Source: Oscillospiraceae bacterium
GTDB lineage: Bacteria; Bacillota; Clostridia; Oscillospirales; Oscillospiraceae
Reading direction: 5' to 3'
DNA: 64,000 nucleotides
Assembly (NCBI GenBank): GCA_017458065.1
Contig: JAFTGD010000043.1
Span: forward strand, 62,001-126,000
Each line of letters opens with the position of its first letter. Position 1 is the stretch's first letter. The notes beneath the pieces were generated by a model that was not told where the DNA came from, made no database searches, and saw nothing but the letters and a program-made list of their open reading frames with translations. Position numbers and translations under genes: made by a program. Positions 62,454-64,000 of this stretch are shown in pieces.

Positions 62454-64000
62454 ATGGGAACATTTCACTATACCTTATTATATGGCCTGATTAACTTCGC
62501 CATCCTGGCAGTCGCCCTGTATTTTGTCGGCAAGAAGATCATTCCGAAAATGTTCGGCGGACGCCGTACCGGAATCGTCGACCAGATCAAGGCGGCTGAT
62601 GACGCGGAGGAAAAGGCGAAAGAACTGCTCGCCGGGATTGAAACTGCCAATCAGAAGGGCGAGGAGGAATGCGCCGGCATCCTGAGTGCGGCACGCTCGG
62701 CCGCCGAGGCGGATGAAGAGCGCACCGAAGCCGCGGACCGCAGAGCCGCGGAGGAGATGACCGCCGAGAACGAGAAGGCGCTGCAGTACCAGAAACACAC
62801 CGCCCGCACCGAGCTGACCCGCGACACGATGGATGAGGTGATTGCGCAGGCCGCTGTGCTGTTGGGGGATGACAGCCACGCCGCTGCCCGTGAGAAGATG
62901 ACCGAGCGTCTCATTCTGCGCGCCGAGAAAAAGCTGCACATCACCCGCGGTGACCTGATGGCCTTCCAGGAGAAGGGCAGCATCCAGGTCGAGATGCGCG
63001 GTGTGACCGAGCCGTCCGAGGACCACATCCGCCGTGTCAAGGCGGCCATCCTGCGTGCCCTGAAGGATGCGGGCGAGGATGCAACTGAGGACCAGCTGAA
63101 CATCACCACCGCCGTGGACGAGAGCCTGATCGGCGGCGTGTACCTGCGTATCGGAGATACAGTCTATGACAGCACGCTCAAGGGAATGCTGAATCGTGCG
63201 AAGGATTCGGTTTCCGTACTTGAACATGACGACGAGGAGCTGATCGACGCCCTGAAGGAAGAGCTCGGCAAGGCCGACCGCGACCCGGCCGTCTATCAGA
63301 AGGGAACCGTCATCAGCGTATCGGACGGTATCTGCCGCATTTCCGGTGTGTCCGACGCCATGGCCGGTGAGCTGATTGAATTCAACCAGGACCTGCGCGG
63401 CATGGTCATGGACCTGGAAAAGGACAACATCGGCGTTGTCCTGCTGGGTGACTATTCCGGCCTGCAGGAGGGTGACGAGGTCCGCCGCAGCGGACGTATT
63501 ATCGAGGTCCCCGTCGGCGAGGAAATGATCGGCCGCGTGGTCGATTCCCTCGGCAACCCCATTGACGGCGGCGGAGAAATCCACACCACCGAAACCCGGC
63601 CTATCGAGAGTCCGGCACCCGGCGTCATCGAGCGCCGTCCGGTTTCCGTCCCGATGCAGACCGGTATCAAGGCCATCGACGCCCTGGTCCCCATCGGCCG
63701 CGGTCAGCGTGAGCTGATCATCGGCGACCGTCAGACCGGCAAGACGGCCATCGCCATTGACACCATCATCAACCAGAAGGGCAAGGACATGATCTGCATC
63801 TATGTCGCCATCGGACAGAAGGAATCGACCGTTGCCGGCTGCGTGCAGAAGCTGCGTGAGCATAATGCGATGGAATACACCATCGTGGTGTGTGCCAGCG
63901 CTTCCGAGTCTGCCCCGATGCTCTACATCGCCCCGTATGCGGGCGCTGCCATGGGCGAGTACTTCATGCACAAGGGCAGAGACGTTCTCATCATCTATGA
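62454..64000 (+). CDS. ATP synthase b-delta-alpha fusion protein (partial, runs off the window)
   Basis: One frame without a stop from ATG 62454 (GAGAGGAGGG upstream) to the window end, 515 codons. Residues 6-26 are a membrane helix ([21 protein letters not shown]), 30 to about 175 a charged b-type stalk, about 176-255 the C-terminal domain of delta ([20 protein letters not shown], then DSTLKGML), and from about 258 a full alpha subunit ([36 protein letters not shown] at 413-431). E. coli alpha numbering is offset by about 255, so alpha is complete. The N-terminal domain of delta is not evident. No separate atpH is present. The operon order is atpB-E-F-fusion. A chain of this kind would attach the peripheral stalk covalently to alpha; since the enzyme has three alpha and one delta, processing or an asymmetric use is required. 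Confidence 0.88.

Follow-up and report, generated by a model that had tools for sequence, protein, structure and literature searches.

The gene that runs off the 3′ end of the window, the stretch of 64,000 nucleotides of an Oscillospiraceae genome analysed here, encodes in one uninterrupted chain a membrane-anchored b-type stalk, the C-terminal domain (CTD) of the delta subunit and a complete F-type alpha subunit of ATP synthase. The N-terminal domain (NTD) of delta is missing from this chain and, although the sequence-only reading that first pointed to the fusion did not remark on it, this loss is the key to the arrangement. The textbook F-ATPase has one stalk and one a-subunit, a count that sets the ion/ATP ratio. 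We consider it rather likely that the fusion belongs instead to a natural multi-stalk, low-gear F-ATPase in which each alpha would carry a stalk of its own.

Organization of the fusion gene and its operon

When the parent contig was read beyond the window end, which cuts the fusion gene, the frame that opens at 62454 was found to continue to a TAA at 64727 (window numbering) and to encode 757 residues on the plus strand; as the sequence-only reading had stated, no stop lies between 62454 and 64000. The extension completed the alpha subunit that this reading had called full: the F-type alpha model TIGR00962 matched it with 794.8 bits (cut-off 484.45), the Pfam alpha/beta domains were located at residues 283-347 (N-terminal), 404-619 (nucleotide-binding) and 626-750 (C-terminal), and the Walker A motif GDRQTGKT is intact and begins, as had been noted, at residue 424. 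The stalk and delta segments were likewise borne out by Pfam matches above the cut-offs, ATP-synt_B (PF00430) at residues 7-130 (48.6 bits, cut-off 28) and OSCP (PF00213) at residues 196-251 (38.6 bits, cut-off 22.3). The OSCP match spans only positions 114-170 of the 172 of the profile. The features of the region are collected in Table 1.

Table 1. Features of the ATP synthase region, in window numbering
Feature	Coordinates	Strand	Support
atpB, subunit a, 226 aa, GTG start	61015..61695	+	PF00119, 159.9 bits
atpE, subunit c, 76 aa	61732..61962	+	PF00137, 65.4 bits
atpF, free short b, 140 aa	61989..62411	+	PF00430, 65.1 bits
Shine-Dalgarno-like GGAGGG 5′ of the fusion ATG	62437..62442	+	sequence; duplex −10.3 kcal/mol
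b-deltaCTD-alpha fusion gene	62454..64000, on to 64727	+	one frame, Pfam, TIGR00962
b part, residues 1-165, transmembrane helix and long stalk helix	62454..62948	+	PF00430; model helix 4-137
delta CTD, residues 166-252, without delta NTD	62949..63209	+	
Linker and alpha N-terminal helix, residues 253-278	63210..63287	+	conservation, model
Alpha barrel and nucleotide-binding domain; remaining alpha past the window end	63288..64000	+	

The operon encodes a (226 aa), c (76), b (140), the fusion (757), gamma (288), beta (461) and epsilon (86), in this order, with atpG, atpD and atpC 3′ of the fusion gene; the separate short b of the earlier reading is thus the 140-aa product of atpF. The host genome assembly consists of 83 contigs (3.6 Mb) and is 96.4% complete. 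In it, PF00006 matched three proteins, namely the fusion, beta and a V/A-type subunit A truncated where its contig ends; the atpA profile matched only the fusion and, weakly, beta, and no F-type alpha other than that of the fusion was found. The absence of atpH, noted previously within the window, extends to this genome at the same completeness, where the only OSCP match is the one in the fusion. Identity with the N-ATPases was considered and rejected, given a TIGR03324 score of 649.3 bits (below the cut-off of 750.5) and the gene order a-c-b-fusion-gamma-beta-epsilon.

Several further observations were made around this operon. The cell has a second rotary ATPase, of V/A type, the first 276 residues of its subunit A being encoded at L005:871-1698, where the contig ends. 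A single gene for an MnhE-like Na+/H+ antiporter subunit (PF01899, 92.5 bits) is found shortly before the ATP synthase operon, at 60209-60712. Epsilon, encoded outside the window at 67012-67272 (window numbering), has 86 residues and matches the N-terminal domain alone; in 25 of the 31 fusion loci with epsilon in view this subunit has at most 106 residues (range 83-138), so that its inhibitory C-terminal helices would seem to be missing often in fusion loci, as they are in the engineered enzyme described below. The carboxylate motif of subunit c, ESLTIY in the window, contains EA in 48 of 50 readable fusion loci (mostly EALTIY), ES in the window and ET in L195; the choice of ion may differ between the window enzyme and most of the other fusion loci.

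Conservation of the fusion

The search of related genomes for the same domain order, suggested by the sequence-only reading, yielded 52 distinct fusions, selected for the presence of b, delta CTD and alpha in a frame longer than 700 aa with a stop codon. All are complete except L051, which is cut at its 5′ end; it was left out of alignment A1 (51 sequences), from which 44 were taken for alignment A3. At an E value of 0.01, Pfam OSCP was matched by 51/51 of the fusions and ATP-synt_B by 50/51. A delta-NTD profile matched none of the 52, and a whole-delta profile matched all of them, reaching back in the window protein to residue 113; the end of the b part may therefore retain a trace of the final NTD helix. 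No second delta-matching frame was present in any of the 52 fusion loci, over views of 4.1-18 kb. One free b was in view in 51 of the 52 loci, and exactly one in all 34 in which atpB was also in view.

Mean identity to the window protein was 75% for alpha, 54% for the b membrane helix, 36% for the delta CTD and 26% for both the b stalk and the linker. The distance from the GDTVYD motif of delta to the alpha barrel is nonetheless 40-47 residues in 51/51. In comparisons of the window protein with six relatives, dN/dS was 0.12-0.31 for b, 0.20-0.58 for the delta CTD, 0.09-0.45 for the linker and 0.03-0.16 for alpha, hence below 1 for all segments in 6/6 pairs; these are rough values, as synonymous sites were saturated in several pairs (dS up to 2.96), and the 28-codon linker was noisier in nine other close pairs (0.09 to 1.6). 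Such ratios indicate that the fusion is under purifying selection.

In a tree of b sequences, for which 30 of 136 other free b rows were taken, some of them from fusion loci outside the 52, the fused b rows were united in a single clade (SH-aLRT 99) that excluded the separate b rows. The loci thus encode two kinds of b, as in b/b′ stalks, and the free b would be the probable partner of the fused one in a stalk of this type.

Structural modelling of the whole chain gave a mean pLDDT of 78.2, with weak stretches in alpha (the longest at 578-626); the model is silent on assembly. The results of a fold search with the whole chain were filled by alpha chains, and for this reason the delta region was modelled alone, which gave a fold match to delta. 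The A3 profile matched the delta chain 9o19_W (7.1e-15). The best PDB match of the profile of 51 fusions was 9jc1_I, an engineered delta-CTD-alpha protein, with positions 180-748 aligned to its residues 9-576 and a score (915.7 bits) narrowly above that of the alpha chain 9nvl_A (913.1 bits).

Distribution among relatives

A search of the 61 genomes drawn from the genus of the window for F-type alpha gave 42 matches above cut-off, spread over 41 genomes. Among these matches, 35 belong to open frames of 739-790 aa (one, in G045, cut by a contig end), and a free alpha frame of about 500 aa was found for 0/42, the match in G021, cut by a contig start, being uninformative. The remaining seven comprise cuts at contig ends (G005, G016 and G021), an internal stop (G002), a break in the b part (G060, L150) and a two-part delta-CTD-alpha gene in G055 and G038 (L015 and L018). 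In G026 the fusion is split between two frames, neither of which reaches the cut-off (L013). When the same 61 genomes were searched for OSCP, 42 matches were obtained from 41 of them, and no match lay in a free frame shorter than 250 aa; the one of 250 aa is the broken gene of G002.

Beyond the genus, frame size was used as a proxy for the fusion. In the family sample (200 genomes), 11 genomes, including that of the window, had CTD-only OSCP matches in frames of 741-815 aa, and in the order sample (247 genomes) at least nine had such matches in frames of 737-784 aa, distributed over at least four families (f1, f16, f17 and f18). Domain order was checked in 4/11 and 8/9 of these, respectively, and was b-delta-CTD-alpha in every case. 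At the phylum level OSCP was matched in 251 of 299 genomes; the matches listed there are the strongest ones and do not allow weak fused ones to be counted. The relatives occur in bins labelled Ruminococcaceae, Oscillospiraceae, Clostridia, Clostridiales and Bacillota, many of them from rumen or gut, and the nearest is 87% identical. A standard free-delta match was accompanied by a three-part frame in G330 (L192) and G777 (L043) and, by frame size, in G208 and G237, a coexistence that hints at separate roles for the two forms.

The three-part gene was also present in two bins labelled Chloroflexi and Flexilinea (L046 and L047). In 5 of 14 genomes of the genus so labelled, a frame of 745-746 aa is the only OSCP match. 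Since five separate genomes carry such frames, three of them identified by frame size, contamination is unlikely and transfer of the fusion between phyla appears likely. In the other nine genomes of this genus (L208-L216) only the delta CTD is matched, in frames of 204-301 aa that are candidate b-delta fusions without the delta NTD.

Other arrangements of the same subunits

The same parts were found in other combinations, and the order also has a free complete delta. A delta CTD fused to alpha gives proteins of 571-599 aa in L168-L177, and a near-complete delta fused to alpha gives 668-697 aa in L178-L184. A b-delta-CTD protein of 226-229 aa is accompanied by a free alpha in L204-L207. In L185-L191 a free delta CTD of 72-74 aa, whose gene has no NTD part, lies between b and alpha; this is possibly another multi-stalk type. 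Two delta CTDs in tandem precede alpha in L202:4541-6568 (+; 675 aa), and the delta gene of L203 (251 aa) encodes a complete delta with an extra CTD.

An alpha tree of 90 rows, which took 31 of 52 b-delta-alpha sequences (a partly different 52, of distinct alphas) and 30 of 78 standard ones and left out L150 (broken) and L065 and L096 (long branches), grouped the three-part rows into a single clade (SH-aLRT 99) distinct from the two-part and other delta-reduced forms. Holding all delta-reduced rows together in this tree was not rejected (AU p 0.143), nor consequently was a single origin. Alpha and beta profiles match each other's families, and the two were separated by Pfam and NCBIfam for the window only. 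The two-part genes L015 and L018, although from the genus of the window, grouped with a row of another family, so that either replacement by transfer or a binning error would account for them.

Search for internal starts of alpha

The sequence-only reading had considered that alpha might also arise from an internal start. We scanned for in-frame ATG, GTG and TTG codons from 30 codons before to 15 codons after the start of the alpha domain and scored their upstream pairing with the 16S tail. The window had one internal candidate, at +0.7 kcal/mol, compared with −10.3 for the true start; within its linker and alpha N-terminal helix (63210..63287) no in-frame start codon with a Shine-Dalgarno match was found. 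Some candidate was present in 47 of the 52 fusions and reached −6 kcal/mol or better in 18, at scattered positions; 16.6% of the 2026 other in-frame start codons attained this threshold as well. In L028, L140 and L142, a GTG close to where alpha begins has a strong Shine-Dalgarno-like match (−10.0 to −10.6 kcal/mol), and single species such as these could differ in having an internal start.

As a check on true starts, the best start in the first 25 codons reached −6 kcal/mol in 42/52. Six frames in which gamma runs on into beta served as a control: the beta ATG scored −11.0 to −11.4 kcal/mol in four (of which L205 and L206 are nearly identical), L168 had a TTG at −8.0, and L176 had nothing better than −4.9. 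The scan thus detects most, but not all, internal starts, as the L176 frame gave no site. A conserved internal start of alpha is therefore unlikely by these criteria, and the earlier suggestion is unsupported as a conserved feature.

The gamma-beta frames are an observation in their own right. Gamma and beta share a frame of 766-774 aa in L204:885-3209 (−), L205:4067-6367 (+), L206:781-3081 (−) and L207:716-3019 (−), and similar run-on frames occur in L176 (786 aa) and L168 (which contains a run of N). A fused gamma-beta protein would hardly be usable, because gamma turns inside beta. In L204-L207 the beta start has a strong Shine-Dalgarno match and an ATG, a site that L176 does not have, and beta of L204-L207 is probably made by internal initiation.

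Proposed arrangement and alternatives

In the arrangement that we propose, the gene would specify a functional protein that serves both the stator and F1. The b helix of the chain would lie in the membrane and rise along the side of F1 to the delta CTD at its top, from which the chain would pass into the alpha N-terminus. The sequence-only reading had placed delta on the alpha N-termini and judged the join geometrically sensible; this holds, but the delta NTD, the usual binder of the alpha N-terminus, is absent. Its loss would free each alpha to anchor a stalk. Because alpha is present three times and is apparently produced only as the fusion, each enzyme would necessarily contain three fused b helices; each helix would probably pair with a free b (as b′) and may bring its own a-subunit, so that as many as three stalks and three ion paths per c-ring could form. 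As the ions used per ATP rise with the number of a-subunits, the enzyme could run at low ion-motive force, either for ATP synthesis or for gentle ATP-driven pumping, which would suit fermenting gut bacteria; the V/A-type ATPase of the same cell could serve the opposite need. We infer the uncut chain, the number of stalks and of a-subunits and the ion/ATP ratio from the gene and its relatives. The analogy with the engineered enzyme of Ueno et al. (2025) argues for the multi-stalk reading, as the natural chain shares both of the engineered changes and adds b to them; on the other side, 66% of the engineered particles had one stalk or none (PMC12229609).

The sequence-only reading had worried that two of the three alphas would carry a surplus stalk and delta. 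This need not be so, since the engineered delta-CTD-alpha enzyme forms up to three real stalks (PMC12229609), and what seemed surplus is probably the point of the design. A stricter form of the proposal, to which we give tentative credence short of an even chance, is an obligate three-stalk enzyme, with three b-delta-alpha chains, three b′ and three a per c-ring, the number being fixed covalently. If this were true, the ions per ATP would be near the c-ring size instead of a third of it, and nature would have a low-gear rotary engine suited to cells whose ion-motive force is very low, one that has probably moved between phyla.

Three readings would return the fusion to an ordinary enzyme with one working stalk. 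A post-translational cut would release three free alphas along with at least one b-delta piece and so bring back the usual stoichiometry. We regard it as unlikely: the linker keeps its length in all 51 fusions but not its sequence, no conserved cut site was seen in it, no delta NTD would be left to hold alpha to delta, as no other delta is in view in the 52 loci or was found in the genome of the window, and the engineered equivalent works as a fusion (PMC12229609). If the chain stays whole, it is conceivable that three fused b are made but that only one finds its partners, the free b and one a-subunit, leaving two idle membrane arms. Three stalks were seen in only 8% of the engineered particles and one in 51%, and single genes for a and the free b leave the copy number unfixed, both in keeping with idle arms; yet the engineered stalks always came with an a-subunit (PMC12229609) and two idle arms per enzyme would be costly, which makes this reading improbable in our view. 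The purifying selection on the fused b (0.12-0.31 against six relatives) does not by itself separate idle from working arms.

One fused chain per enzyme would also be enough if free alpha came from an internal start. The 18 fusions with a candidate at −6 kcal/mol or better within 45 codons, and the GTG of L028, L140 and L142, are what speaks for it, but their scattered positions, the background rate of 16.6% and the poor candidate of the window (+0.7 versus −10.3 kcal/mol) leave it very little weight. An artefact of assembly or binning has practically none: many of the records are metagenome bins, but within the genus the same frame recurred in separate genomes, for 35/42 alpha matches, and it was recovered in loci of other families as well as, by frame size, in 5/14 genomes of the Chloroflexi/Flexilinea-labelled genus.

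Comparison with known systems

The mycobacterial b-delta enzyme, which has a separate b′, has one stalk. Its fusion differs from the one described here in that delta is complete (the chain range 126-445 spans the NTD) and alpha is separate; assignment of our protein to this type was rejected, as it lacks the delta NTD and has alpha in the same chain. A survey from 2017 reported the delta/b fusion in Gordonia and some Mycobacterium, and a fusion with alpha is not noted in the available text of that survey (PMC5709465). In the F-ATPase of Chloroflexus aurantiacus (PDB 9itj), the a-subunit accounts for 36 chains in 18 PDB entries and delta for 12 chains in 6; from these chain counts, it is a natural enzyme with more than one a-subunit. 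Unlike in our fusion, delta (157 aa) and alpha are separate PDB chains there, and delta is present in two copies, an arrangement that is not three-fold.

In the F-ATPases characterised so far, F1 carries a single delta NTD on its three-fold axis, delta is in contact with each of the three alphas, and the b pair is attached to delta; according to Ueno et al. (2025), the NTD is what limits the stalks to one (PMC12229609). These authors removed residues 2-104 of delta from the Bacillus PS3 enzyme and fused the rest to alpha, and obtained enzymes with as many as three stalks and three a-subunits: particles with 0, 1, 2 and 3 stalks amounted to 15, 51, 26 and 8% in cryo-EM, the stalks seen were never without a-subunits and the H+/ATP ratio increased from 3.0 to 5.8 (PMC12229609). 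They also pointed out natural delta-CTD-alpha fusions, in Acidaminococcus fermentans and in the UniProt entries G4Q3K6 and A0A1I2C5T3 (PMC12229609). Compared by description, the Acidaminococcus fermentans protein resembles ours in missing the delta NTD and carrying the delta CTD on alpha, and its authors predict a multi-stalk enzyme; it differs in being two-part, its b not being described as fused in the available text (PMC12229609). The sequence-only reading knew of no described b-delta-alpha fusion, and none was found in the full-text literature covered, most subscription journals lying outside that coverage; the two-part delta-CTD-alpha form, however, was already in print (PMC12229609). The delta-NTD-less fusions that we found in print are of the two-part kind only, and to these the covalent b-delta-alpha chain would add a three-part form.

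The closest counterpart is thus the design of Ueno et al. (9jc1), with which the natural chain shares the absence of the delta NTD, the delta CTD on the alpha N-terminus and the lack of a free delta; the linker is also near in length, the profile alignment having one 3-residue gap there and two 2-residue gaps elsewhere. That enzyme, however, is laboratory-made and its b is separate (a b2 homodimer), whereas here one b is within the chain and a second kind is encoded. What may surprise specialists is this covalent chain and its spread, the principle itself having been published in 2025 (PMC12229609). Because b is tied to alpha, the fused b could not detach, as stalks seemingly did on the grids of Ueno et al., and the natural protein may therefore offer the stably bound multi-stalk enzyme that these authors called needed (PMC12229609). 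By tying b to alpha, this conserved natural lineage without the delta NTD goes beyond the engineers' design, and the existence of natural multi-stalk, low-gear ATP synthases is now directly testable.
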